Shown here: positions 5,567 through 24,128 of the stretch, one piece after another
How positions within the stretch are numbered: the stretch's first letter is position 1
How the letters are laid out: each line of letters opens with the position of its first letter
NCBI GenBank assembly: GCA_017471925.1
Contig: JAFURM010000053.1
Coordinates: 1-64,000, forward strand
Length of the DNA: 64,000 nucleotides
DNA from: Bacteroides sp.
Lineage (GTDB): Bacteria > Bacteroidota > Bacteroidia > Bacteroidales > Bacteroidaceae
Direction of reading: 5' to 3'
Made by a program: the position numbers and the translations under genes
The notes under the pieces: model-generated
Database searches by the model: none
What the model was told of the DNA's origin: nothing
What the model saw: the letters and a program-made list of their open reading frames with translations, nothing else

Positions 5567-5611
5567 CTAACGACAATCAGGCGACAATACGCCTAACAAT
5601 CAATCATATAT

Positions 5612-6409
5612 ATGGACAGTTTAAGAAATTCAGTACACGAGCTGACGAGTGCAAACGGGGTGCCCGTGACGCAACTGCAGCACATCAACGAGAGTTTATT
5701 GAAGAAGTACCAACTGACGTGCGGCAACTTCCTGACGGTGCTCCCCAAGGAGGTGGAGATTTACTACGTGAACCGCCAGGCCAAACCGCCCTACATTGAC
5801 CAGAACATGCAATGCATGGCCGTCAAGAAGGGAGAGGAGGACATTTGGGCACTGCAGAGCAACCGCTTTGGACGCGTCTACATCCCTCTGAAGGGAAGCG
5901 GAGGCATAGACATCTGCCTGTCGGACAGTGACGGATATGCCTTGTGCTGCACGCTGAAAGCGGCAGAAATCAACGGCACGGTCTATTGGAGCCAACAGAA
6001 AGTGCGCAATGTCGTGCTGGATACCCTCTGCCAACACGAAGGGATGGAGGCCAACGCCGAAAACCGGGAGAGGTTCATCAACCGACTGAACGAGAAACAG
6101 TCTATTACCCTGCTATCGGTCCGCGAAACGTCCATTGAGGGACATGTCTACCACCTGCACCGTCGTGCCTTGCGGCATCGTGACAAGGTGGCCCAACTTC
6201 CCCTGCGCTCCTTCATGGACATCTGGAACAAACAGCTGAACATGGACAACGTGAAACGTATCACGCTCTACATGAGTGCCCATCCCGAGGAGGATATCCT
6301 GGAGGTAATGCGACGACAACAGTTCCGCTACATCCCGGCAGAAATCAGGGTGCGCTACGGGATAGGCCGCAAGGTGAAGCTCTATGAAGAGACGATGCCC
6401 GCAGATTAG
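5612..6409 (+). CDS. conserved-looking hypothetical protein, 265 aa
   Basis: I do not recognise this protein. It is soluble, with no signal peptide or membrane segment. The N-terminus reads like a small basic module (LTSANGVPVTQLQHINESLLKKYQLTCGNFL). The middle contains a beta-rich stretch (WALQSNRFGRVYIPLKGSGGIDICLSDSD broken over residues 80-110). The C-terminus is charged. Its codon use resembles the core genes rather than the accessory DNA to its left. It converges with the GH2 gene and overlaps its 3' end by 4 nt, so no terminator separates them. Function unknown. Confidence 0.75.
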   Translation: MDSLRNSVHELTSANGVPVTQLQHINESLLKKYQLTCGNFLTVLPKEVEIYYVNRQAKPPYIDQNMQCMAVKKGEEDIWALQSNRFGRVYIPLKGSGGIDICLSDSDGYALCCTLKAAEINGTVYWSQQKVRNVVLDTLCQHEGMEANAENRERFINRLNEKQSITLLSVRETSIEGHVYHLHRRALRHRDKVAQLPLRSFMDIWNKQLNMDNVKRITLYMSAHPEEDILEVMRRQQFRYIPAEIRVRYGIGRKVKLYEETMPAD

Positions 6410-9400
6410 CGCATCGTCTGACGAATCATGTTCAGCAGCAGGCGGCCGGCTATCGGGTCGGTCGAAGCCTTGTCCGTACACATGGTAGATACCATGACCT
6501 CACCCTTGCCGGCATGAAGCTGCAGCAGGGTGACTCCACGCATGGCATTGATTTTGGCTATGCGGTCTTCGGGCTTGCCGCCATCAATATAGGCGTGTAT
6601 CTTCATCTGACCGGCCAGTTCCACAAGGTCGGCACTGCGGTTCACCTTCAGCGTGGCCCGGCAGGCAAGCGGTATCTCGCGACGGTTGTCATTGAAGTAG
6701 CGCAGCTCCAAGAGGTCGATGTCGCTAAAGACGGGATGGTCGCTCTGCTCCATGTTCACAATGTCGCCCTCGGTGGGGATAATCCATCCCGTGATGTGCT
6801 CGGGATAGAGCTGGCGGGCCAGTTCCTTGCAGTTCAGCAGCAACAGGTGTCCTCCCTTGTCCACATAGGTACGCAGGGCGGTTTGCTCCTCGGCGCTGCA
6901 CTCCGTCACTCCCGAGATGATGCAGAGCGCACTCTTCCTGGCGTGCTTCAGCAGTTCGGAAACGGTGGCAGCCGGACGATAAGCGATTTGCAGGAAGTCG
7001 AGCCGGCTGCCCGTTCCGTCCTTGTCCAACAGGACAATTCCGGCAGCAGGCTTCAGCTGTCCCACATTCCACTCCTTGCGGGCCAGCAGCAGGGCATACT
7101 CATTTCGGGAAAGCGTGGCGCCATTCTCGGCGAGTTCCAGCTTCAGGCGGGCGTTTACCTTGTCGGCCTGCAGATTATGGGGAATCCGGATGTCCGGCTC
7201 GATGTACTTGCGGCCATAGTATTCCACGGCGGGGAAGTCCTCTATCCCCGAAGCCAATATCCTGTCGGCATCGTCCACCAGGCTCCAGGCCAGTGTCATG
7301 GGTTGCAGGTCGCGGCCGGCATCGTTGTCGTTCACCACATAGATGCGGGTGGTCAGCTTCTCGCCGGCATAGAGGTTGCGTCCCCAAAGCTCGGCACTGA
7401 CCAGCACCGGCTGCATGGCCCGCTGCATGGCATAATAGGTGGGCCAGGGAGTGATGTTGCGGTGGTCATAGCACTGCCTGAACCAGGTCATGTAGGCAAA
7501 GTGCATGATGCCCGAAGCCTGGTCGTTGGTGCGTCTCAGGGTCTCGGCCAGTTCGCCCGTGATGAACGACTGCACCTTCAGGAAGCTGGCGGGATTGGCC
7601 CAGTCATAGGCTTCATAGCCAATCAGCGTGTAGGGATTCTGATGAATGAGCTGATAGGAGCGTGTGGGGTGTCCGGTCTCTCCATTGGGGTAGCCCGTGC
7701 TCATCTCCTGACTGATGAGCGGACGGCCGGGAGTCTTGAACTGCTTCTGGAACTCGCCGTTGAAGAAGCGGAACAGGGAGAAGTCATACCAGTTGTAGTA
7801 GCCATGATTGTCATCGATGTCGCCGTCATCGACCGTGCTGATGAACTCCTCGCCGAAGCGGTTCACCCCGTTACGCCTCATGTAGTTGGAGTCGAAGCAG
7901 ACGGGGCGTGTGGGGTCTTGCCGCCTCATCTCCTTCACCACGTCCGAGATAATCCGGAATTTCCGGCGGGCACGTTCAGTGTCTGCATCCAGGTCATAGA
8001 ACTTCATCTCATTGTTCACCGTCCAGAAGAAGACCGACGGATGGTTCTTGTACTTCTTCATCACCTGCAGCCACTCGCTGCTCCAGAGGTCGAGCACGGC
8101 CTTGTCGGGGATGGGCGTGGAGTGAATCATCAGCCACGACCAGGTGCCTTCAAAACTGATGGCAATGCCGTTGCGGTCGGCTGCCGACACCCACAGTTCA
8201 TTCCAGGGGGAGGTGTGGGTGCGCGTAGCATTCACATTGCCCTCCTTCATCAGCTGCATGAAGCGGTCAGCCAGCAGGGCATCGTTGGGACAAATGGCAA
8301 AGGGAATGTGATTGCCTCCACGAAGCCAGAACTTGCGCCCGTTGAGGTAGAGGAAACCATCGCGTGATTCAAAGGTGCGGAATCCTGAGGTGACCTCCAG
8401 ACGGTCTATCTCGCGTTCCTTGTTCCCTACCAGGCGGAACTTGAAGTCATAGAGGTTCGGGGTGGCCGGTTCCCACAATTTGGGAGTGAGGCCGCCCACA
8501 CGGCAGACATAGGTCTCCTGAGCACCGGCGGCAAGCTGGAGCTTCGACTGCAACATGCCGCTATAGAGCGGTTCGCCGGTGGCCTTGTCCACGATATCGG
8601 CCTGCAAGGCAAACTTGCCCTTCTTCGTGCCGTTGTTCTTCACGGTCACTTCCAGCGTGGCACCGTCCAGAGCAGGCTTGATGAATACGTCTTCTATCTT
8701 CAGGGGATTGCTGATGGTGAGTTTCACCGGCTGCCAGATGCCTGCAGGATTGTCGCCATAGAAGCCGTGGGGCACATCTGTGAGCACGGCCTGATGAGCC
8801 TGCGCGTCATTCTTGTTCTCTTCCACATCCTTGCGCACAGAGGAATAGTAGTTCTCCATGGCATCACTGGTCTGAGCCGCAGCACCCTTGATGTCGCGCG
8901 TCACCTTTACTGTCAGCAGGTTGCGTCCTTCATGCAGCAGGCGGCTACCATCCACCTGGAAGTCACCGAACATACCCACATGCGTACCGGCCAGCACGCC
9001 GTTGATATAGACTTCCGCTATCTTGGAAACGGCATCGAACGAGAGAACCATCCGCTTGCCCTGCACACCGGCAGGGAGGTCTATCCACTGGCGATACCAG
9101 GCCGCAGCGGTCTTACGGTAGTCGAAGGTATAGTTCTCGCAGCGGTCGGTCTCCTGCTGATAGTAGGTGTCGGACACGCCTTTGTGCTGCGCCCCTTTGG
9201 GGGAAGGCATGGTTTCGCCATGCAGCCAGATGCGTATGGGGTTCCAGAAGTTGGGCACACTCATCACGTGCCAATCTTCATCGGACGTTTCCGGAGAGAC
9301 GGCCTTCGCCTTGTCTTCCAACTGATACTCGGGCATGAAGAGCCAGTCTCCGTCCAGGGAGATGTCGGTGCGTTCCGCCGCCAACTCCCCTACCCGTACA

Positions 9401-12061: not shown

Positions 12062-13126
12062 TTATTCCACACTGATTTTTTCCACCGGTTGCTCCTTCAC
12101 CTTGTCTAAGGGATGAGCCTGATAGGCCACACGGAGAAAGTCTATCTCGCTCAGGTCAATGAGACGGATGGTGTTGTTGTAAGCCGTCTTATAGTACACC
12201 TTGCGATGGGTCAGGTCGATGGCCGAGGTCCACTGTGTAGTGCTGGGCATGTCGGGGGCTTCACCCAAGGGATGCTCGATGCCGATGGGAATATCAAAGT
12301 TGTTCAGGATGTGGAAGCATTGGGTCACCGTGTCGTAAGCAGTGGGCCGGAGGGGAGCCGTGGCCCGATAGAAGGCAGCCCTGACAAAGCGCGACGGGGG
12401 TGTGGCATCACCGGGGATGCCCAAGAAGCCGGAGTTGCCGCCCAAAGGATGGAGCGTGATGCCGCTCAACGGACGGTCGGGTGCACTGCCGGGAAAGAGA
12501 TTCACATAGTTGTTGAGGTTGGCCAGATGCCATTCAAATCCGGGCGAATTGGTCAGCACACCTACCGTATTCTCGTAGAAACGAGGAACGCCGTCCACGA
12601 TTTCCAGCACCACCTGTCGGCCCGAAGGTTCACCTATGCGCCAATGCACCACCGCCTCGCGCTCCAATCCCACGATGCGCACCGTGGAGATGGCCGCCTT
12701 TACCTCCTCAATGGAGGAAAACCGGCTCAATATCCAGGCCGTGACCTGCAAATCGGCCAACGTCTGTGCGTTCAGCGAAGGGTCGTAGGGAAGATAACCG
12801 CCATAATAGGGAAAGAAGAAGAGGCCGGCCGACAATCCGGCTTCATTGATGCCCTCGGCAATAAACTCCTTCTGCACCACACAAAGCCCCACCACACCAT
12901 GACGTGCCTTGAATTTCAGGCCATTGGAACCCGTAGGAGTAAAGGATATGAGTTCCTGCCCACGCGGAATGATGACATACTCGCTCTCCATCGGTTCCTT
13001 GGCCCACTCTATGGTGCGAGCCTGTACATAACTGCCATCTTTGGCAAACAAGGATATGCCGGTGCAGGCCACCGCCTGCACCGTGCCGCCCCACACTGCC
13101 GTGAGGCCCAATAATAGCTTCTTCAT
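12062..13126 (-). CDS. choloylglycine hydrolase family enzyme (bile salt hydrolase / penicillin V acylase type)
   Basis: 354 residues from the Met that begins the signal peptide (MKKLLLGLTAVWGG). Cleavage before Cys21 (VA-CTGIS) would expose the N-terminal nucleophile that defines this Ntn-hydrolase family. Other family features are the ARTIEW segment just after it, and LTNSPGFEWHL further on, which carries the oxyanion-hole Asn. The protein would amide-hydrolyse conjugated bile acids or related N-acyl substrates in the periplasm. Bile-salt and penicillin-V specificity cannot be separated from sequence here. It has its own 3' hairpin, and a 22-nt repeat array lies about 115-210 bp upstream. 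Confidence 0.88.
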   Translation of the reverse strand: MKKLLLGLTAVWGGTVQAVACTGISLFAKDGSYVQARTIEWAKEPMESEYVIIPRGQELISFTPTGSNGLKFKARHGVVGLCVVQKEFIAEGINEAGLSAGLFFFPYYGGYLPYDPSLNAQTLADLQVTAWILSRFSSIEEVKAAISTVRIVGLEREAVVHWRIGEPSGRQVVLEIVDGVPRFYENTVGVLTNSPGFEWHLANLNNYVNLFPGSAPDRPLSGITLHPLGGNSGFLGIPGDATPPSRFVRAAFYRATAPLRPTAYDTVTQCFHILNNFDIPIGIEHPLGEAPDMPSTTQWTSAIDLTHRKVYYKTAYNNTIRLIDLSEIDFLRVAYQAHPLDKVKEQPVEKISVE

Positions 13127-13426: not shown

Positions 13427-13645
13427 TTATAAGGATACATATTCAAACACCCATACTGGGATTCCCTTTTTCCGAGCTATATCAATCATGTGTCTTGTGC
13501 CACTGGATTTTCCATCCCCCAATGCAATCAGATGAGTAGCGATACTTAGCATATCTTCATTTCTCAAAAAACCGGCTGCACGTGGATATAAAGTACACGA
13601 TTCTTTTTTCCACAAGACAAACGGACTTACTTGAATCCCAGGTTT
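13427..13645 (-). pseudogene. 3' remnant of a SLOG/DUF2493-like gene
   Basis: The open frame encodes QVSPFVLWKK...PRAAGFLRNEDMLSIATHLIALGDGKSSGTRHMIDIARKKGIPVWVFEY (split over the frame). This matches the second half of DUF2493/YspA-like nucleotide-binding SLOG proteins (AG-RN-M, then DG-S-GT--I--A). The first half is missing. A TGA stop at 13646-13648 closes the frame, and only a TTG start is available. A nine-codon frame starting at ATG 13656, directly after the rtcB stop, runs into it out of phase. Likely a decayed gene once co-transcribed with rtcB. Confidence 0.6.
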
Positions 13646-13657
13646 TCAAACTCCATA

Positions 13658-14917
13658 TTACTCTGCCGCTTTATAATTAAAGATGGGTTTTATCGTATTT
13701 ACTATTTCAACTGTATCTGTAATGTTACCTAAAATTTCAGTCATAGGTTTATATACCATGGGACTCTCATCTATAGTAGCTTCAGTTACAGTTTCGCTAT
13801 ATATGCCCTTCATGGATTGTGCAAAATCGGTCATACTGATTTGCCGGAATGCCTGACTTCTACTCATTATGCGCCCGGCACCATGAGGAGCAGAGAAATT
13901 CCAGTCCTCATTCCCCTTGCCGATACCTATCAGTGAGCCATCGCGCATATTCATCGGGATGATGCATTTTTCCCCTTTGCGGGCGGATATAGCCCCCTTG
14001 CGGATGATGTTGTCATCGCCGATGTAGTTGTGTACACTCTCAAAAGCCTCACTTGAAGCCTCGGCATAGCCCTCTTGGCTCAGATAATCGAGAAGCAAGC
14101 CAACGATAAGCCTCCGATTGATAACCGCCCATCGCTGACACAAACGCATATCGTGCAGATAGTCCTCCCGAAAACTGCCTTCCAAATAAGACAGTTCTGC
14201 CGGAATCGCGGACTTACGCATTTTGAATGAATTGTGGAGGCTGCGAATGACTTCCTGCAACTCGCTCTTCCTGCCCGCCTGCTTGTATTCATAGATAAGA
14301 CGGTTCTGTTCCTCCATCATTTCCGCCCAACCGGATTGACATTTCACGGCCAACTTCTGATAGATTTCCGCGACTTGCTTACCCAAGTTACGGCTACCCG
14401 TATGCACCACCAAGTAATACAGGTCCTGCTCATCCTTGTCCAATTCAATGAAATGATTGCCGCCCCCCAAGGTGCCGACGGACTTGTCGAGTCGCTTCAC
14501 ATCGTTCAACTCCCGATAACAGCGTATCTGTCGAATGATGCCTTTCGCTTCACTATAACTCCCCATATACTTCTGGGGCAAGGACAGGTATTCATTGCTC
14601 CGATGATTCCTGCCCGAAGGTATTGCCCGCAAGATATATTCATGAAAGGCGTGGTAATCTATCGGTTTCAGACATCGGAATGGCTGAACCCATATGCCGC
14701 AACCTATATCCACACCTACGATATTGGGAATAACCCTGTCCCCCAAGTCGCCCGTAAAGCCGATGACGCATCCTGCCCCGGCATGAACATCGGGCATAAT
14801 GCGTACCTTGCAACCGCTGAACACATCTATGGACATCAAGCGCTGGATTTGCTCAATAGCACTTTCTTCCACATTACCGGTGAAGATTTTCACGTCATGC
14901 TTTTCTATTGTCTTCAT
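13658..14917 (-). CDS. rtcB: RtcB family RNA ligase
   Basis: 419 residues, full length for the short RtcB type. It joins 2',3'-cyclic-phosphate (or 3'-phosphate) and 5'-OH RNA ends using GTP and Mn(II). Visible signatures are DVHAGAGCVIGF, VGVDIGCGI (metal Cys), LGGGNHFIEL, HTGSRNLGKQVA, and SAPHGAGRIMSR with the guanylated His. The C-terminal ESPMVYKP-EI segment also fits. It acts in the cytoplasm in RNA repair or tRNA processing. No archease or RtcA is nearby. Gene remnants flank it on both sides (13427-13645 and 15065-15205), so it sits in an eroded accessory segment. Confidence 0.92.
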   Translation of the reverse strand: MKTIEKHDVKIFTGNVEESAIEQIQRLMSIDVFSGCKVRIMPDVHAGAGCVIGFTGDLGDRVIPNIVGVDIGCGIWVQPFRCLKPIDYHAFHEYILRAIPSGRNHRSNEYLSLPQKYMGSYSEAKGIIRQIRCYRELNDVKRLDKSVGTLGGGNHFIELDKDEQDLYYLVVHTGSRNLGKQVAEIYQKLAVKCQSGWAEMMEEQNRLIYEYKQAGRKSELQEVIRSLHNSFKMRKSAIPAELSYLEGSFREDYLHDMRLCQRWAVINRRLIVGLLLDYLSQEGYAEASSEAFESVHNYIGDDNIIRKGAISARKGEKCIIPMNMRDGSLIGIGKGNEDWNFSAPHGAGRIMSRSQAFRQISMTDFAQSMKGIYSETVTEATIDESPMVYKPMTEILGNITDTVEIVNTIKPIFNYKAAE

Positions 14918-16317: not shown

Positions 16318-16408
16318 CAAGCAGAATTATCAACAATGCATATTCACTCTCCCAAGTGGGAATATCATATATTGAATTTATGACAGCCCCCGAAAGAATT
16401 AGATATTA

Positions 16409-16581
16409 AGAGTCTGTTTTGAATTTATTCCATTCTTTTATTATTCGCTTTCCATGAGTCTCTTTTCGGCTCTTTTGCCCGTTCTTTCTCGTCACATAGC
16501 CCGCTATGCTCCTTGAAAGAACAAACAAAAGAGCCGAAAAGACTCCTCATAAAAAGGCTGAATAAATTCAAAACAGACTCT
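16409..16581. repeat. 173-bp foldback (near-perfect palindrome) element
   Basis: Outer arms 16409-16430 and 16560-16581 are perfectly complementary over 22 bp. Inner arms 16456-16477/16526-16545 pair apart from a 2-nt indel. GTTCTTTC (16481-16488) pairs with GAAAGAAC (16515-16522), and CATAGC with GCTATG closes the centre at 16501-16502. The element carries no gene. A half copy is present at 5234-5301, so it is a dispersed repeat, MITE- or foldback-like. It sits about 150 bp beyond the end of the operon at 16733. Confidence 0.75.
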
Positions 16582-16732
16582 AAATTGAGAGAGAATCTTA
16601 TTCATAGCTTTTATACAACTGGGTCAGGACAAAACTCCCTACGCTTGCACGTCTTGCAATGTTTGCCCATCCACAGCTCATCGAATTGTGTCATGGCTTT
16701 ATTGTAGTGGGCAGAATTGGAGATGAATGACG

Positions 16733-17566
16733 TCATAAAATACAATGATTCCATGTTACACAATGCAATGCCCCTCCATCTTTAATAAGCGGCTGAGCGA
16801 AAACCTGTTTAATTATCCTATTGGGGAATATGCTTTGAAATAGGCCTAATGCCTCCCTATCTTCGTCTGCATCATGGTTTAAGGATATAGCCGGAAGGAG
16901 AATGGCATCACATACTTCAAGGTAATTCAGATAACACCAACTATCGGGGACGAAGTTTTCATATTTGAGCTCGACAATATCGAAATGGTATTCAAGAATT
17001 TTAAAAATTCTCTTAGTGAATGGTTTTCCTGATTCCTTTTCCAACTGTCGGTAATTGTTCAACAGAATGCGATCATCTCCCAGCCAAGCGACCATTCCGT
17101 CTGCATGACCACATTTGTCCTCCATATCCCAAGGCAACAGGATGACTTCTGCCTGAAACGCCTCTTCCATCCGTTCTATCAGGTGCAGTGGGCTGTATTG
17201 AGGATTTTCCATGAAAATCTTGTCTGTCACTAAGACTTTCTCACCACATTTAACAAAGTTTCCGCCATCAAAAACAACGTCCATTCTGTCGGCAAACTCA
17301 ATATTCTGTTCTTCGCAAGCCAAAGCCTGTTCTGTGATGTATTGTCTTAATGAAGAACCCTCACGCAGATAATCAGGTTGGTAGTTGTAACCCACATATT
17401 TTCCATCGCCTATATGCACTGGCATAAAGTCACGACACCAAATGTCGTTGGAATAAGGAAGAGTTTTGGGCTGCATCTTCAAAGATTGCAAAGCGACACG
17501 AAACTGATTATAAACATTTTCGTAATCCTTATTTAACCACTCTGAAATATAAATATCATGCTTCAT
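16733..17566 (-). CDS. peptidyl-arginine/agmatine deiminase-like protein
   Basis: 277 residues, shorter than agmatine deiminases (about 350). The guanidino-group hydrolase signatures are intact: WCRDFMPV (about 43-50), FDGGNFV (about 99-105), DKCGHADGMVAWLGDDRILLN (catalytic His/Asp, in parts), and the C-terminal KDGGALHCVTW with the nucleophilic Cys. It probably hydrolyses a guanidinium substrate such as free arginine, agmatine or a protein Arg. The exact substrate is not readable. It is the last gene of the six-gene operon, 16 bp after the second DUF262 gene, which is an unusual place for a catabolic deiminase. It may be an effector, a metabolic modifier or cargo. Confidence 0.85.
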   Translation of the reverse strand: MKHDIYISEWLNKDYENVYNQFRVALQSLKMQPKTLPYSNDIWCRDFMPVHIGDGKYVGYNYQPDYLREGSSLRQYITEQALACEEQNIEFADRMDVVFDGGNFVKCGEKVLVTDKIFMENPQYSPLHLIERMEEAFQAEVILLPWDMEDKCGHADGMVAWLGDDRILLNNYRQLEKESGKPFTKRIFKILEYHFDIVELKYENFVPDSWCYLNYLEVCDAILLPAISLNHDADEDREALGLFQSIFPNRIIKQVFAQPLIKDGGALHCVTWNHCIL

Positions 17567-17582
17567 GTATTCATCTTTTTTA

Positions 17583-19874
17583 CTATATAAATTTGCCTAT
17601 TATTTCGTTAATCTCACCATCTCCACTTTCTATGATATCCATGTCAATTACATCAATTGACCGATTATAAAAGTCAGGAATAAAAGGAATGCAGGTTATA
17701 GGAGAATCCAAATTACTCTTCTTGTTCCAATTCTCTTCATTCCTTGCAGGATAGATTGTATAACTATATGAATATCCACAGAAAATATTGCCCCAATGAA
17801 AGTTGTCTATTGGCACAATGAAGTTGTCTTTTATATCAAAAAATGCAGATATGGCCCTGTCATTCCAATAATTTAGAAGTTCTCCTCTTTCGTCAGCCTG
17901 AAGAGTCTTTATGGTCATCCAACTGATAATGAGTTCCTTGTGGTCTGACGGCATAAAAATAAAAGGACGAACCTTCTCTTTTACTTGTTCTTTAATATAT
18001 GTCACAAGATTTTCACTGCTCATAAGTTTCTCTATCTGAGCACTTTCTATCCATAATGAGGAACTTGCTTTCTGAGAATAGTAACACCCCTCAAATGACC
18101 ATTGGCAATTATTGATATGGTGTAGACTGATGAGTCCGGAGGTAAGCCTATATAGTCTGAACCAATTTGCAAATTGTATATCTTGAGTAGCCCCTTTAGG
18201 GTCTAAGGCAATACACATTTTCTTTAATATATTCCATCTTTTCAATACTACTTGGGGAGTATCGACCGCCTGAGTACCATCAAACCATAACGGAGTTAAA
18301 TCACCCATGAGGTATTCGTTATCTTCCATCTCCTCTATAGGTAGGAAGTTTCCTAATCTTTTCTTTTGCACTTCATCTGCATTATACCATATTGGAATAT
18401 TTACCAGTTGTATCTTTGAGATATTCAAGGTATCCAAATCTGCAATCAACAAATTCTCGTCACTGGTTTGATTGACAATTTGAACTAAATATCTCCAATC
18501 CATATAGTTTTTACCCCTTCTTGTCTGCTCACCATTATATTTTCCCCATACGGCATCATAATGGTTCTTCCTTAAACGCCGGGCAAAAGGATACAGCATT
18601 TGTGTATTTCCGTGTTCGGCCATAAAGGCAATGAGTGGAAGGACTATGTCAAGATCTGCACTCCTGAGCCAATTCCAAATGGCAGGCTGAGAATCCATGA
18701 CTGCGATATCGTCTTTTTTCCTATTGGTCGACAAAAGTACATTTTGAATCTTTGAACTCTTGGAAATCTCGTCAACAAGGCGTTTTAAAGCATTAAAATA
18801 TTTGTCAAGATTTCTCAAAGACTGAAACTTCCTGTAATTCTCGATGCTCAACTTTATTTCATTGGCATTCTCTGTTATTTTTTTCGGAGCGTTGAGAAAC
18901 AGTTCCTTAATGTTAAGCGGTGTCTTCTTGTCATTCACCCAACCGCTTTCTTGAATCAATCCAATTTGCCAATACCACATAAAGAATTCGTGCATGCCTT
19001 TATCTGCCGTCTTGTCTTCCCCCCTGTTCTTCCAAAACCAGTCCTCGCGCAGTTCCCATTGACCAGAGTACTTTTTAACATCTGCAGGAGAAAGACGGGC
19101 ATCTCCTAAAAGTATGGGTTTGATGTTTTCTGTAGCAGAAAGGGGTTCGCCTGTAGTATTGATGACGACATAAGTCTCTTCACCCCTATAACGGTTTCCC
19201 ATGTCGTAGTATAGCACACGTAGGTTTCTTAGGACAAAGTTGCCTAGTTCCTTAAGTTCACAGTCTGTATATTCTCCAAAGAAACGGCTTATTGTTGACA
19301 ATGCCGCAACCATGCTTTGGATGGAGGCATCTTGGTCATACTCGTTGAAGTACCAGTTGGACTGCTTGATTTCATCTATTGGGGTAGTTCTTTCAATAAA
19401 GACTCTCCGTGCAAGGTCGCTCAGGAAGTATAGTGTGCTTTCGCGTATGGCATACTGCAAATGAGGTTCATAGTCATCGTTCATTTCTTTCTCCGATATG
19501 ATGAATTCGTTGAATTTGCCTCCTGACCTCGTGTTGATATATCCTAAAAGCAGGAATAATGTTGTCAGGCGTTGCTGACCATCGCAAATCTGAATATGAC
19601 CATGAGGCTGCTCGTATCCGTAGATAAGTCCCAAAGTGACCTTTAGCGACTTGTTTTCTTCGTATAGTTCAACAATATTCTTCACAAAGTCTGAAACAAG
19701 TTCTCTGGGTTTCTTATCATTAGAACCCACGTATGCGTTGTCGCCCCAGCAATAATCTCTCTGAAGATCTGGGATAATCACCTTCGTATCGTCTCCAAAT
19801 AGTTCACGAAGACTATACTCATTACCACTTACAAAAGTATTTGTTCTATTCATTTCTTTCAATATTGTAGTCAT
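17583..19874 (-). CDS. DUF262 protein without DUF1524 nuclease motif
   Basis: 763 residues. The N-terminal DUF262 (GmrS/ParB-like) domain has IPDLQRDYCWG (about 35-45) and the ICDGQQRLTTLFLLL motif (about 97-111), which in this family binds or hydrolyses nucleotide. The long C-terminal half is helical, and I see no HxxP DUF1524 HNH motif. Its start overlaps the 3' end of the preceding DUF262-DUF1524 gene (29 nt, or 8 nt if Met8 at 19853 is used), so the two are translationally coupled. The pair may form one complex in which only the other subunit carries the nuclease. No signal peptide. Cytoplasmic. Confidence 0.85.
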   Translation of the reverse strand: MTTILKEMNRTNTFVSGNEYSLRELFGDDTKVIIPDLQRDYCWGDNAYVGSNDKKPRELVSDFVKNIVELYEENKSLKVTLGLIYGYEQPHGHIQICDGQQRLTTLFLLLGYINTRSGGKFNEFIISEKEMNDDYEPHLQYAIRESTLYFLSDLARRVFIERTTPIDEIKQSNWYFNEYDQDASIQSMVAALSTISRFFGEYTDCELKELGNFVLRNLRVLYYDMGNRYRGEETYVVINTTGEPLSATENIKPILLGDARLSPADVKKYSGQWELREDWFWKNRGEDKTADKGMHEFFMWYWQIGLIQESGWVNDKKTPLNIKELFLNAPKKITENANEIKLSIENYRKFQSLRNLDKYFNALKRLVDEISKSSKIQNVLLSTNRKKDDIAVMDSQPAIWNWLRSADLDIVLPLIAFMAEHGNTQMLYPFARRLRKNHYDAVWGKYNGEQTRRGKNYMDWRYLVQIVNQTSDENLLIADLDTLNISKIQLVNIPIWYNADEVQKKRLGNFLPIEEMEDNEYLMGDLTPLWFDGTQAVDTPQVVLKRWNILKKMCIALDPKGATQDIQFANWFRLYRLTSGLISLHHINNCQWSFEGCYYSQKASSSLWIESAQIEKLMSSENLVTYIKEQVKEKVRPFIFMPSDHKELIISWMTIKTLQADERGELLNYWNDRAISAFFDIKDNFIVPIDNFHWGNIFCGYSYSYTIYPARNEENWNKKSNLDSPITCIPFIPDFYNRSIDVIDMDIIESGDGEINEIIGKFI

Positions 19875-21642
19875 TCGCTAATATTTTAAGGATTATCATG
19901 GAAGACTCTTCAATATTTGCAGGCTCCCATTTCCCGTTGGCAAAGGAAGAAATGGTATGCAAGAGATTCCTGCTTTCGAAGCTCCTTTCATTGTTGAAGA
20001 ACTTTTTCTTCTTCTCCTCAAAAGAGAGGTTTCCAAATTCAGAATTATTCCTGCCATATAACAGAACTATATTACCTATACAATGTTCGCTGAACCTTGT
20101 TTTGTCTGTAAAGACCTTGTCAGAGTTGAGGAGCGTTGGATTTGCTGTCTCTGCTTCTGACAACTCTGTCCCATCGCCTCTTACATAGACGCATCTGCCG
20201 TCATCCCTTATTTCAACATGATAGAATCGTGACTTTGGATAGATGTGTTCAAGTGACTTGTTGGCCCAAATAGAAAAGTCGAATTTCACTCCTTTGCCAC
20301 CATTCAGTTTGTTATACTCCTCTACATTTAACCTTAGCAATTGTTTGGTCAGCAAGTCATCATATACATTATAGACATGAGACTTTGACAGGTCTTCTAT
20401 CATTTTGCGGGCCCTCTCTTCCCGCTTATGAGCATTGTCTATTTTTCCATCTATTGCAGTAGGATCATTGGTAAAAGGTTCTGCTACTTCTATATGAGTG
20501 GCACCTAGAAGCCGCCATTTCGCATAGTATTCCAGTTTTTCTTTGGCCCGTTTGTTCTCAATGAAGTACATGATTACATTGTATTTATCTTCAGCGTCTC
20601 CAGAAGAACCGATTAATGCACACTTCAGGTAGTTAAAGGAGTGTACGTCATTATATACATCTTCGAAATCTTTCTGAAGATCACGAAGTTCCTTAAAGAC
20701 ATTCTTTGCCTGTTTTATATCATTGTCAGGCAGAAGGTGCTTAAAATTACGGAATGAGAAAGGACTTGTATGATTCTTCTTTTTATAATAATATTCTAAA
20801 AGTAATCCCATAGGTTTGTGGGTATTGAAAAAATCCTTCACATCTTCCCTGTTCCACCAATAAAGCCATTTATCCCACTCTCGGGCATACTTGCTTCTCA
20901 ATGCATTTGTTTCCCATTCCATTGATGCGATCTCTTTCAAAATGATAAAACTATCATCAAGAGTCCTTACTATAGGCAAATTCGCAATTTCTGCTGTTTG
21001 GGAAACTATATGAAGTATTTCTGCTTTCACAAGTTCCTCGTCATGCATCTTGGCTTTCTGTCCATTCATCATCGTAAATGTTCTTACTGCTTTCTCACGA
21101 TCTACTACAATGTACAGCAAACTAATTTTATTCAACAAGAAGTTTGTGAACTTCCCTTTGTCCATGTTGTCTCGAATCAGTTGCTTTATCTGCTCTATTG
21201 CTTGTTTGAAATAGAAAATGTCTTGATTTAGATTCTCTGGGTCTTCATTCTGATAGTCAAAACTTTCATTTTTCAAAGAATTCAAGAAAGACTTCGATTG
21301 CTCTCTGACAGCATAGTCCAAGTCTATTTCCATGTTTCCTGTGACATTCTTACTGTCCAGACACCAGAGTAAAAGATATAGTGTAGTAGTACGTTGCTGC
21401 CCATCAATTAGGAGTATCTTGTCACCATCTTCAACCACAGTGACACCTTGAAGAAAAAACTGGTGTTCACTATTCGCGGTATAAGCGGCAATCAGACTGT
21501 CAATAAGAACTTCTACCGAAGTTTTTTCATCAGCAATTCTAACAGACCATTTATAACCTCTTTGGTAATTGGGTATGACGAATGTCTTATGCCCATTGTC
21601 TGGATATAAATACTCTCTTAATGTTTTAAAACATGTTGACAT
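19846..21642 (-). CDS. DUF262-DUF1524 protein (GmrSD-like)
   Basis: 598 residues. The N-terminal DUF262 domain has VIPNYQRGYKWS (about 22-33) and LIDGQQRTTTLYLLLW (about 76-91). The C-terminal DUF1524-type HNH region has SLEHIYPKS (about 475) followed by IGNIVLLYGRNNSEFGN and KKKKFFNN. In GmrSD type IV restriction enzymes this domain pair couples an NTPase to cleavage of modified phage DNA. A similar role here is inference. It is followed with overlap by a second, nuclease-less DUF262 gene. It belongs to the WYL-led operon. Confidence 0.88.
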   Translation of the reverse strand: MSTCFKTLREYLYPDNGHKTFVIPNYQRGYKWSVRIADEKTSVEVLIDSLIAAYTANSEHQFFLQGVTVVEDGDKILLIDGQQRTTTLYLLLWCLDSKNVTGNMEIDLDYAVREQSKSFLNSLKNESFDYQNEDPENLNQDIFYFKQAIEQIKQLIRDNMDKGKFTNFLLNKISLLYIVVDREKAVRTFTMMNGQKAKMHDEELVKAEILHIVSQTAEIANLPIVRTLDDSFIILKEIASMEWETNALRSKYAREWDKWLYWWNREDVKDFFNTHKPMGLLLEYYYKKKNHTSPFSFRNFKHLLPDNDIKQAKNVFKELRDLQKDFEDVYNDVHSFNYLKCALIGSSGDAEDKYNVIMYFIENKRAKEKLEYYAKWRLLGATHIEVAEPFTNDPTAIDGKIDNAHKREERARKMIEDLSKSHVYNVYDDLLTKQLLRLNVEEYNKLNGGKGVKFDFSIWANKSLEHIYPKSRFYHVEIRDDGRCVYVRGDGTELSEAETANPTLLNSDKVFTDKTRFSEHCIGNIVLLYGRNNSEFGNLSFEEKKKKFFNNERSFESRNLLHTISSFANGKWEPANIEESSMIILKILANDYNIERNE

Positions 21643-21687
21643 ATTATAATTTGCATTTAATTAGTATCCACCGATTTATTATCAATT

Positions 21688-22182
21688 TTACAATATCTCC
21701 CTCGCAATCCAAGCACAAGCCTCAGCATCAGCCAGTGCATGGTGATGGTTCTCTAAATGATAGCCGCATCGGGTCGCAACGGTATGCAATTGGTGATTGG
21801 GAAGGCTTTTGCCAAAAGTCCGTCGGGCGGCTATACAGGTACAATGAAATTCATAATCAGGATAATCCATACCGTAGCAACGAAAGACAGCCTTCAAGCA
21901 ACTTTCATCGAAGGACTTGTTGTGAGCCACCAAAGGGAGTCCCTCTATCAAAGGTTCAATTTGTCCCCATACCGTAGGGAAAAGAGGGGCAGTTTCTGTA
22001 TCACTTCGGGTGATGCCATGCACTTTAGTACACCAATAGCTGTAATAGTTCGGTTCGGGGTGGATGAGCGAATAGAACGAATCAACGATTTCTCCATCCC
22101 GAACAATTACCACACCCACACTGCACACACTGGTGCGTTCACGGTTGGCGGTTTCAAAATCGATTGCTGCAAAATCTCTCAT
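21688..22182 (-). CDS. DnaQ-like 3'-5' exonuclease (DEDDh)
   Basis: 164 residues, a stand-alone exonuclease domain. ExoI is AIDFETA (about 6-12), ExoII is VAHNKSFDE (about 84-92) and ExoIII is HHALADAEAC (about 147-156), so all DEDDh residues are present. HGI near 55 is the usual structural turn. It degrades DNA or RNA from 3' ends in the cytoplasm. It lies 5 bp after the RhuM-Fic gene and 45 bp before the first DUF262 gene. In this operon it could process nucleic acid freed by the DUF262 pair (inference). It is too short to be the replicative epsilon subunit. Confidence 0.88.
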   Translation of the reverse strand: MRDFAAIDFETANRERTSVCSVGVVIVRDGEIVDSFYSLIHPEPNYYSYWCTKVHGITRSDTETAPLFPTVWGQIEPLIEGLPLVAHNKSFDESCLKAVFRCYGMDYPDYEFHCTCIAARRTFGKSLPNHQLHTVATRCGYHLENHHHALADAEACAWIAREIL

Positions 22183-22187
22183 AACAT

Positions 22188-23183
22188 TTATTTGTTTTCC
22201 CTATTTATCAAATTCACTACAACCTTGACCATAATATCCTTTTCCTCGGTTCGGCTCTCGGCTATCATTAGTGTAAGTGCCACCAAAGTGTTGTCGGCAA
22301 TACGTTTATGACCGTCTTCGGCGTACAAGATGCCGTTCTTTTCCATAAACCAAAGGAAGAGCATGGCTGCAATGCGCTTGTTGCCATCACTAAACGAGTG
22401 ATTCTTTACGACGAGGTAAAGCAACATAGCCGCCTTTTCCTCAACAGACGGATATAGATCTTCGCCGGCAAATGTCTGGTATATCTGTCCGATACTGCTT
22501 TTAAAAGAGTCGTCCTTCTCATTAGCGAACCATTGACTGCCACCGAATTTCTCTTTCAGAGCGTTGATGGCCGCCATCGCGTTTTCGTATGTGGCTCTAA
22601 ACGGTTCATTTGAGGTAGTCTTATCGATTGACAGGTTTTGATAGTCATAACGGTCGAGGGTATCGAGGGCATAGACGTAATCACTGATTACATTGAACAA
22701 ACCGCTATATTCGTTGTTGGACACTTTTTCTTGAAGCGACAAGGCTCTCGACATTAAATGGACAATGTTTTTCAGTTCATGATACCGTTCAAGTTTCAGA
22801 TTTTGATTGACCACATAGCCTTTAATCAAGAAATCCTTCAAAACTTTGTTTGCCCACTGGCGGAAACGGGTGCCATTGACAGACTTTACTCGATAGCCAA
22901 CGGAAATGATAACATCGAGAGAATAGAAAGGTACTGGTTTCTTGACTCCATTAACGTGTAAATTTTGCACGTTATTCTCTCGGAGAAGTTCTCCTTCTTT
23001 AAATACGTTGATTACATGACGTCTTATATTAGACTCTTCTCTTGCAAATAATTTTGCCATCTGACTTGTAGTCAGCCACACTGTTTCCTCCTGCAACTTT
23101 ACTTCCAACTGCGTATTCCCGTCTTCACTTGTATAGATAATGATAGAAGAGGTGTTATCGGATATGATTTCTTCTTTTCCCAT
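22188..23183 (-). CDS. RhuM-family N-terminus fused to a Fic/Doc domain
   Basis: 331 residues. About 1-150 is the RhuM-like winged-helix/virulence-protein domain (VWLTTSQMAKLFAREESNI, FYSLDVIISVGYRVKS). About 170-331 is a Fic/Doc domain with the signature HSFSDGNKRIAAML, the Doc-type form of HPFxxGN(G/K)R. Fic enzymes transfer AMP or phosphate to proteins. Together with RhuM this fusion is a known Bacteroidetes architecture but its substrate is unknown. The catalytic His and the GNKR anion-binding loop are intact, so it is probably active. It starts 1 bp after the WYL regulator gene stops. Confidence 0.88.
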   Translation of the reverse strand: MGKEEIISDNTSSIIIYTSEDGNTQLEVKLQEETVWLTTSQMAKLFAREESNIRRHVINVFKEGELLRENNVQNLHVNGVKKPVPFYSLDVIISVGYRVKSVNGTRFRQWANKVLKDFLIKGYVVNQNLKLERYHELKNIVHLMSRALSLQEKVSNNEYSGLFNVISDYVYALDTLDRYDYQNLSIDKTTSNEPFRATYENAMAAINALKEKFGGSQWFANEKDDSFKSSIGQIYQTFAGEDLYPSVEEKAAMLLYLVVKNHSFSDGNKRIAAMLFLWFMEKNGILYAEDGHKRIADNTLVALTLMIAESRTEEKDIMVKVVVNLINRENK

Positions 23184-23184
23184 A

Positions 23185-24096
23185 CTATTTCAACTGATAT
23201 TTATCACACATTCCTTTTATGTTACTTGCCATTTTGTCACGTAGCGATAGCGATTCGAGGACTTCCACGTCTTCGCCATTCCGCAATATCTCTTGCAGGA
23301 AATCGTATGTCGGACAAAGTTTCAATACGAAAATGCTATACTGCTCGGTTCTTTCTATCTCCTGCTGGCTATGGTGCAGCGGCAATGAACGCCAGTAGTT
23401 AGCTTGCTTAGCTGACACTTTCAGTTTGATTTCTTCTACATCAAGCTCGTCATCAATGATTACACCATAGTATTTTTCAAAATATTCCGATGGATGGAAC
23501 GTGTCCGGCATCTTGAACCTTTTGTCAGTGAGCACCGATAGCGTATGAATTCGGTCGAGCGCATATATCAATACATCGCCATAATAAGGGCTGCGGGCTA
23601 CCATGTACCAACGCTGTTTGAACAGCTTGACACAAAATGGCTCTACATCAAAGGTACTGCTCTTGTCACTCCAATAGCTTTGATAGGTCATGCGGATAGT
23701 CTGTTCCTTCTTCATCGCTTCGATAATGGAGGAAAGATAGGCCTGACCGGAGGGTATTTCTTCGAGCAGGATGCGATCCTTCATGTGCAGATTGTCTATC
23801 AGCAGGTTACTCACCGAAATGGAATTCAACAACCAGTTGCGAAGATTTCCATTTTTCAACTCTTCTTCATTGGCAATGTAATAGTGATACCCACCTTTGC
23901 GCTCGCAGTCGACAATCAGTCCAAACATCTCTTCAACAGCAATGCGCCATTTATGAAATGTCCTGAGAGGAAGTTCTACACCCTCACTCAATTCGCTATC
24001 AAGCCACTTTTCGTTTATCGCTTCAAAAGTGATTCGCTTGGCGGCATAAATGGTTTCAACCAACCAGACATACTTATTCAAAAGATTCTTTGCCAT
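23185..24096 (-). CDS. WYL-domain transcriptional regulator
   Basis: 303 residues. The N-terminal about 100 residues are a winged-helix-like DNA-binding region (LPLRTFHKWRIAVEEMFG). The central WYL domain has IRMTYQSYW, FCVKLFKQRWYMVARSP and LIYALDRI (about 135-185). A WCX-type extension follows to the end. WYL regulators often repress or tune defence loci and can sense nucleic-acid ligands. It is the first gene of the operon, behind a -7 box at 24121-24128, so it probably controls its own transcript. Confidence 0.9.
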   Translation of the reverse strand: MAKNLLNKYVWLVETIYAAKRITFEAINEKWLDSELSEGVELPLRTFHKWRIAVEEMFGLIVDCERKGGYHYYIANEEELKNGNLRNWLLNSISVSNLLIDNLHMKDRILLEEIPSGQAYLSSIIEAMKKEQTIRMTYQSYWSDKSSTFDVEPFCVKLFKQRWYMVARSPYYGDVLIYALDRIHTLSVLTDKRFKMPDTFHPSEYFEKYYGVIIDDELDVEEIKLKVSAKQANYWRSLPLHHSQQEIERTEQYSIFVLKLCPTYDFLQEILRNGEDVEVLESLSLRDKMASNIKGMCDKYQLK

Positions 24097-24120: not shown

Positions 24121-24128
24121 CAAAGGTA
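24121..24128 (-). promoter_or_regulatory. -7 box of the WYL operon (TACCTTTG)
   Basis: On the minus strand this fits TAnnTTTG and lies 24 bp before the WYL start codon. It is the only promoter-like signal before the six genes, supporting one transcript of about 7.4 kb. No clear -33 element is seen, as expected for a regulated promoter. Confidence 0.5.

Follow-up and report, generated by a model that had tools for sequence, protein, structure and literature searches.

A Bacteroides operon that couples a WYL regulator and a DEDDh exonuclease to a GrwAB-like DUF262 pair, probably a type IV defence locus

Results

A six-gene operon in AT-rich DNA

The DNA analysed here is a stretch of 64,000 nucleotides from Bacteroides sp. 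(assembly GCA_017471925.1, contig JAFURM010000053.1, positions 1 to 64,000; hereafter the window), which contains an operon of six complete open reading frames, all on the minus strand, running from position 24096 down to 16733. The operon joins a WYL-WCX regulator (WYL) and a DEDDh exonuclease (DEDDh) to two DUF262 proteins resembling the published restriction proteins GrwA and GrwB, and also encodes a RhuM-Fic protein and a guanidino-deiminase (Table 1). The six same-strand genes and their spacing had been described in a first-pass annotation made from the DNA letters and were found as described, the first four genes being separated by 1, 5 and 45 bp, the two DUF262 genes overlapping by 29 bp and the last gene following after 16 bp; its domain assignments were likewise confirmed, as the Pfam domains of all six proteins score above the cut-off. 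It had also placed the genes behind one -7 promoter box. A TANNTTTG box, whose consensus we take to be that of the Bacteroidota, does lie 24 bp ahead of the WYL start, but the window holds 42 copies of this motif where 24.45 are expected, and three further ones lie on the same strand inside the operon (at 23649, 19832 and 18732), so that the box is not the only one. The placing of the operon in AT-rich accessory DNA held: GC content is 0.39-0.43 across 14-24 kb, and the 2-kb blocks on either side (6-14 and 24-28 kb) range over 0.49-0.58. The opening 6 kb of the window, at 0.38-0.44, form another AT-rich part.

Table 1. Features of the operon and its borders, with positions in the window
Feature	Position	Strand	Details
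WYL-WCX transcriptional regulator	23185..24096	-	303 aa; first gene of the operon; Pfam WYL 2.9e-15, WCX 2.1e-9
RhuM-Fic (Doc-type) protein	22188..23183	-	331 aa; between WYL and DEDDh; Pfam Virulence_RhuM and Fic
DEDDh 3'-5' exonuclease	21688..22182	-	164 aa; Pfam RNase_T 1.7e-19
GrwA-like DUF262-DUF1524 nuclease	19846..21642	-	598 aa; GmrSD_N 4.7e-23, GmrSD_C 4.4e-9
GrwB-like DUF262 protein with long C-terminal part	17583..19874	-	763 aa; GmrSD_N 1.2e-21, over residues 23-255 only
PAD_porph guanidino-deiminase, short accessory clade	16733..17566	-	277 aa; Pfam 8.9e-21
Possible Bacteroidota -7 promoter box TACCTTTG	24121..24128	-	presumed consensus
MITE-like foldback	16405..16585	.	inverted repeat; borders the 3' side of the operon

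The DUF262 pair resembles two-protein type IV restriction systems

The His-Me domain GmrSD_C (DUF1524) was found only in the 598-residue DUF262 protein, which is encoded ahead of its 763-residue partner; in the latter, DUF262 stops near residue 255 and no other family scores above the Pfam cut-off. Across 12 aligned GrwA-like sequences the NTPase motifs of DUF262 (QR, DGQQR and FxxxN) and residues H466, N524 and N533, which leave the His-Me nuclease intact, are invariant, as are QR, DGQQR and N239 across 11 GrwB-like sequences (the window's included in both cases). A GrwA profile matched structures of DUF262 proteins and of SspE, and the predicted structures of GrwA and GrwB, made from three-row alignments, were unusable (mean predicted local distance difference test scores, pLDDT, of 40.2 and 35.2).

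Two type IV restriction systems that each consist of two proteins, GrwAB and TgvAB, have been published (PMC12137116, PMC11411939). In the portions of its description drawn on here, GrwAB, published in 2025 from Vibrio cholerae VSP-II WASA, consists of GrwA with DUF262 and DUF1524 and of GrwB, encoded second, in which DUF262 is joined to other domains of unknown kind; both are required, the system acts on phages with modified bases, and 471 GrwAB hits are reported (PMC12137116). The window's pair shares with it the order of a DUF262-DUF1524 gene followed by a DUF262 gene with a long C-terminus, all of the QR, DGQQR, FxxxN and His-Me motifs in the first protein, and two asparagines nine residues apart (N524/N533, against N521/N530 in GrwA), and it differs in having Y for the F of FxxxN in its GrwB. 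TgvAB, of V. cholerae VPI-2, likewise comprises two DUF262 proteins, one with DUF1524, and in TgvAB both are needed, but the DUF262-only gene tgvA comes first, judging by locus numbers, and lies inside a type I restriction operon (PMC11411939, in part), whereas the window has the reverse order, and a scan of nine proteins from 13.6 to 24.1 kb gave no hsd-type family. The single-chain enzymes GmrSD, BrxU and SspE resemble GrwA in joining DUF262 to DUF1524, with SspE matched by profile, and differ from the window in that it encodes a second DUF262 protein. On the strength of these published relatives, type IV restriction is the likely activity of the pair.

Genomes with a match to the 763-residue protein or its profile, counting the window's own each time, numbered 7 among 198 for the order, 7 among 149 for the genus and 15 among 395 for the phylum. 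All 26 other places were fetched (one genome, G165, was matched twice), and adjacent DUF262-DUF1524 and DUF262 genes were present at 23 of them, one with its second gene cut by the contig end (L029) and one with its first gene split (L064); the remaining three (L066-L068) had no GrwA-like partner. At L022 a SMODS (CBASS-type) nucleotidyltransferase is encoded at a distance of about 2 kb from the pair. A phage gene module was considered and set aside, the 763-residue protein having one weak match in 50,697 phage records. Viral contigs scanned with the sequence itself gave no relative; profile scans gave two loci for GrwB and 124 stretches for GrwA (80 kept), the latter mostly matching the DUF262 part only. 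GrwAB-like pairs are, on these profile matches, at times carried on viral contigs, as at L190 (2005-6455), where a serine recombinase lies alongside.

WYL and the exonuclease recur beside DUF262 pairs

The 23 pairs had been collected irrespective of their neighbours, and WYL or DEDDh genes were counted when on the same strand within 2 kb. One or both stood beside 8 of the 23 pairs: WYL beside five (L021, L022, L023, L062 and L063) and DEDDh also beside five, upstream of the pair in L021, L023, L025 and L029 and downstream in L030. A 31-residue exonuclease remnant directly upstream of WYL in L022 was left out of the DEDDh count. None of WYL, DEDDh, RhuM-Fic, the deiminase or a DUF262 pair was found in the 20 control stretches, all taken from the same genus around one MscS-like gene (242,791 bases in total, one stretch having only 895).

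The order WYL-DEDDh-GrwA-GrwB is contiguous in four other loci (L008, L010, L021 and L150, the last reached through the exonuclease search) and interrupted in the window, L023 and L162. The inserted genes are RhuM-Fic in the window, an ADP-ribosylglycohydrolase in L023 and, between WYL/DEDDh and the DUF262 pair of L162, two tubulin-like genes (within 5587-8643) and one more; a single tubulin-like gene of the Tubulin/FtsZ family (12413-13120) also separates WYL from the pair in L063. L008 is on a contig labelled Erysipelotrichaceae, which by eye ends in an OmpA-like frame and is for that reason perhaps a misplaced Bacteroidales contig. L010 is plasmid pE2-28 of Prevotella. Plasmid loci were examined for 4 of the 17 records matched by the 763-residue protein and for two further stretches from the 24 records matched by WYL. 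Besides pE2-28, a Bartonella plasmid carried WYL directly with the pair (L011, WYL-A-B), a Chryseobacterium plasmid had DEDDh-A-B with WYL downstream (L012) and a Segatella plasmid had neither gene (L009); L052 had distant DUF262 genes 2.2 kb before WYL, and L053 had no DUF262 genes and a PD-(D/E)XK gene adjoining WYL. Prevotella and Segatella are the nearest named plasmid-borne relatives. A phosphoesterase follows GrwB in L022, L023, L025, L062 and L063, identified by Pfam Metallophos in L025 and L062 and, in the other three, from a profile built on these genes or by inspection. Calcineurin-like phosphoesterase genes were also seen near WYL or DEDDh in L010, L306, L311, L170 and L178.

The coupling of WYL and the exonuclease to DUF262 pairs is recurrent but far from universal. 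A literature search that left most subscription papers and bioRxiv outside its scope found no published account of it; 'wyl' and 'exonuclease' are absent from the main text of the GrwAB paper (PMC12137116), 'wyl' has no occurrence in the consulted text of the TgvAB paper (PMC11411939) and 'exonuclease' is absent from the main text of the BrxR/CapW paper (PMC9122601). WYL beside a type IV enzyme is not new in itself, since type IV restriction made up 37 of 210 BrxR-associated systems (PMC9122601, in part); what appears to be new here is the exonuclease coupling and its recurrence. The first-pass annotation knew of no named system with this gene set; the DUF262 pair within it is of a named kind (GrwAB, TgvAB).

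The regulator resembles DriD and PafBC, and the exonuclease active site is conserved

In the exonuclease, the residues assigned to the active site, the acidic D8, E10, D92 and D152 and the histidine H147, are invariant in nine of nine sequences, the window's included. For the regulator, a 13-row profile gave as its best Protein Data Bank matches 7tzv, 7u02, 9cu3, 9pfq and 8tp8 (E about 1e-26), the last four of which we take to be structures of DriD, ahead of PafBC (1e-19) and BrxR (1e-4); both the WYL and the WCX domain, as in DriD, are present in the window's protein. 7TZV is DriD, and DriD and PafBC are activated by single-stranded DNA (ssDNA), according to the part of a preprint consulted (PMC12340889). 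BrxR and CapW are, like the window's regulator, WYL regulators of defence operons (PMC9122601, in part), from which the window's profile differs in lying nearer to DriD and PafBC.

WYL and DEDDh are also found together elsewhere. Among 40 of the 148 DEDDh places, chosen mostly for high rank and distance from contig ends, WYL lay within 3.5 kb at 11 (L150, L151, L153, L156, L159, L162, L170, L173, L184, L185 and L186). In L186 the two accompany a PDDEXK_4 nuclease, and in L151 (7701-10210) they stand immediately ahead of recA in a stretch with no DUF262 pair. As such loci lack DUF262 pairs, one of them preceding recA, WYL-DEDDh exists without restriction genes, and it may be a DNA-damage unit that was later recruited to defence.

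The modules appear to be exchanged between loci

The pE2-28 locus shares 66% identity with the window in WYL and 79% in DEDDh, and 20% and 19% in GrwA and GrwB. Because the regulator and exonuclease are so much closer than the DUF262 pair, the modules appear, from these comparisons, to exchange between loci. Between the window and L008, all four core genes have codon position 2 kept (0.76-0.88) over position 3 (0.33-0.46).

RhuM-Fic and the deiminase are probably cargo

RhuM-Fic matched the PADLOC model PDC-S23 from end to end (residues 11-329 to model positions 4-326 of 327, E 1.4e-133). We read PDC-S23 as a single-gene candidate, presuming that to be the sense of its 'S', and the window's gene differs in sitting inside an operon. 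The Fic motif HSFSDGNKR is intact, as had been annotated, and the [ST]xxxE[GN] motif is absent; the protein resembles Doc, which acts on EF-Tu, scoring 39.2 bits against DOC_P1 (cut-off 38.65). Nothing useful came from literature searches on RhuM and Fic as phage defences or on deiminases in defence.

The deiminase carries the presumed catalytic motifs WCRD, DGGN, GHADG and GGALHC and looks intact in them. A role in the agmatine pathway was rejected, as the protein lies far under the cut-off of the AguA model TIGR03380 (34.8 bits against 381.8) and some relatives lie near defence-type genes. Of the 198 genomes of the order, 16 (its own included) have a match to its clade, and 14 of the 15 other loci were fetched. 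A protein of about 190-335 aa stands beside the deiminase in six of these 14 (L294, L295, L296, L299, L301 and L302), and in at least four (L298, L299, L300 and L303; 10 chosen proteins scanned) a defence-type gene lies within a few kb; the short deiminase and its partner are possibly an unrecognised defence pair. The identity of the partner as a methylpurine-DNA glycosylase was tried and rejected, with a weak match in one of six, below the Pfam cut-off, and no meaningful match in the Protein Data Bank. PARIS-like, TIR, type IIG and DUF262 genes were seen near the deiminase in L298, L300, L303 and L299. A deiminase fused to the same partner protein was seen in a faecal contig labelled bacteriophage (L272), and two Flammeovirga plasmids (L055 and L056) have in a row an exonuclease-domain gene, a 137-aa protein, a short deiminase and a protein of about 190 aa.

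The first-pass annotation had proposed all six genes as one candidate defence system whose members would co-occur in other genomes. That co-occurrence was found for WYL and/or DEDDh with the DUF262 pair; RhuM-Fic and the deiminase were each near none of the 23 other pairs (within the fetched stretches, at an E cut of 1e-20; a weak RhuM-like frame of 100 aa lies about 4 kb away in L026), and the six-gene set as a unit is not upheld. A true six-gene system in which both are needed would fit the gaps of 1, 5 and 16 bp, which place the two genes on the same likely transcript, and the RhuM-Fic fragments seen close to WYL-DEDDh at L153 and L156, which come from two genomes within a single genus. Set against such a system, besides the absence from all 23, are the fetched deiminase relatives, which have neighbours other than those of the window, and the RhuM-Fic relatives, which are widespread on plasmids (39 records from several phyla, with at least 80% of the protein covered in 13) and also occur at three viral-contig loci (neighbours viewed at one, L269). 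We regard the six-gene system as highly improbable, and both genes are better read, on this distribution, as cargo than as system components.

The borders of the operon

The foldback repeat that had been reported next to the operon was recovered as inverted-repeat arms at 16405-16441 and 16549-16585, making an element of about 180 bp. The 21-mer at its end has 64 matches in the genome (30 forward and 34 reverse, with at most two mismatches; control 0), often paired about 150 bp apart, and because of this repetition the foldback looks like a miniature inverted-repeat transposable element (MITE). A conserved insertion site was rejected, the 20 stretches next to the same MscS-like gene in related genomes, each taken by itself, having no gene of the operon. 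Gene remnants had also been claimed nearby; one likely case was noted and no others, a 62-aa frame at 13427-13615 that is probably a remnant and that resembles, by eye, the end of a YspA-type SLOG protein near WYL in L008 (3361-3861). Three genomes have an RtcB RNA ligase gene in the neighbourhood of a WYL-linked locus (window 13658-14917; L023 14230-15726; L311 1-801, cut by the end of the stretch).

Discussion

Taking the findings together, we consider it fairly probable that the operon encodes two-protein type IV restriction of the GrwAB type along with its own regulator and exonuclease, is induced by ssDNA and carries two cargo genes. Its earlier standing as a candidate defence locus is supported by family membership, through the GmrSD-type pair and through RhuM-Fic as PDC-S23, and judged from its genes it is probably a real, functional defence operon of a known kind.

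A number of observations weigh against this reading. On the side of the pair, the likeness to GrwAB is one of gene order, architecture and motifs; 15 of the 23 pairs have neither WYL nor DEDDh within 2 kb (two of the 23 being on contigs of 5.3 and 3.1 kb), and DUF262 pairs in general therefore need neither partner; and the exonuclease of L030 is placed after its pair rather than before it. On the side of the partners, the DEDDh family was matched in 130 of 295 genomes and is thus common on its own, with a DUF262 pair at 4 of the 40 fetched DEDDh loci (L150, L158, L162 and L184). The WYL family, with 50 places spread over 38 of the order's 198 genomes (its own included), is mostly found elsewhere too: among the best 25 places outside the window (20 fetched by WYL and five, L150, L153, L159, L170 and L173, through the exonuclease), DEDDh lay within 3.5 kb at six (those five and L321) and a DUF262 pair at one (L150). 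The window's WYL sequence alone matched PafBC first (6.7e-8) and 7tzv second (6e-5), the DriD match is limited to the WYL-WCX domains, and residues 1-119, the N-terminal part, had no Pfam match; the PADLOC matches of WYL and DEDDh were to CRISPR-associated models and the candidate PDC-S48 and to no type IV system. Lastly, on a GrwA tree of 34 rows, 10 of which have both WYL and DEDDh within 4.5 kb on either strand, eight changes of this state are required and are forced by well-supported branches; shuffled labels gave a mean of 8.7 changes, with 187 of 500 shuffles as low as 8, so that the state does not cluster on the tree, which is itself weakened by long branches and unsettled bootstrap values. 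The coupling would, on this tree, have been made or lost many times, with gain and loss indistinguishable because of the lack of clustering (8 against 8.7).

Much of this would also be expected if the DUF262 pair alone were the defence system and WYL-DEDDh a unit independent of it, such as a DNA-damage switch, brought beside it by the clustering of accessory genes within islands. The pairs with neither partner agree with that account, as do the loci where WYL and DEDDh are adjacent without a DUF262 pair (L151, L153, L156, L186 and L321). The tight operon packing at several loci, the repeated gain or loss of the coupling on the GrwA tree and the absence of either gene from all 20 control stretches argue for a more than incidental association, and we think the independent unit rather unlikely. 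An accessory operon for DNA maintenance or stress, with no antiviral role, was also weighed. DnaQ-type exonucleases act in DNA repair as well. WYL proteins do so too, according to the portion of the preprint consulted (PMC12340889). GmrSD-type pairs with these motifs have, in the parts of the published tests drawn on, restricted phage (PMC11411939, PMC12137116), and RhuM-Fic is a PADLOC defence candidate, which together make the maintenance operon improbable.

For the preferred reading of a regulated type IV restriction operon, we infer the following course from the relatives of its proteins. WYL, like DriD and PafBC, would be switched on by ssDNA arising from damaged or replicating phage DNA, and active WYL would raise expression of the operon. 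GrwA and GrwB together would recognise base-modified phage DNA through nucleoside triphosphate hydrolysis, GrwA would cut it, and DEDDh would degrade the resulting 3' ends, completing its destruction. DEDDh may in addition remove the ssDNA signal and so reset the switch, as is suggested by an ssDNA-sensing activator adjoining a 3'-5' exonuclease. The toxin-like RhuM-Fic and the deiminase would be separately acquired cargo on the same transcript. More tentatively, WYL-DEDDh could be a portable 'sense and erase' switch for whatever effectors follow it, GrwAB here and PDDEXK_4 nucleases elsewhere, in which WYL would read ssDNA fragments arising during infection and the exonuclease would erase the signal that induced it along with the phage ends; this is possible, though we would not call it likely.

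Little is known of how restriction enzymes against modified DNA are silenced and switched on, and a concrete, testable case of inducible restriction in the Bacteroidales is offered by a regulator of the WYL family and an exonuclease which accompany a type IV restriction pair of recently described kind and are exchanged among unrelated pairs. The operon also shows single defence candidates, RhuM-Fic and the deiminase, slipping into such operons without breaking them. If the 'sense and erase' switch were true, a restriction enzyme would no longer act constitutively but would become a defence that is induced and then resets itself.

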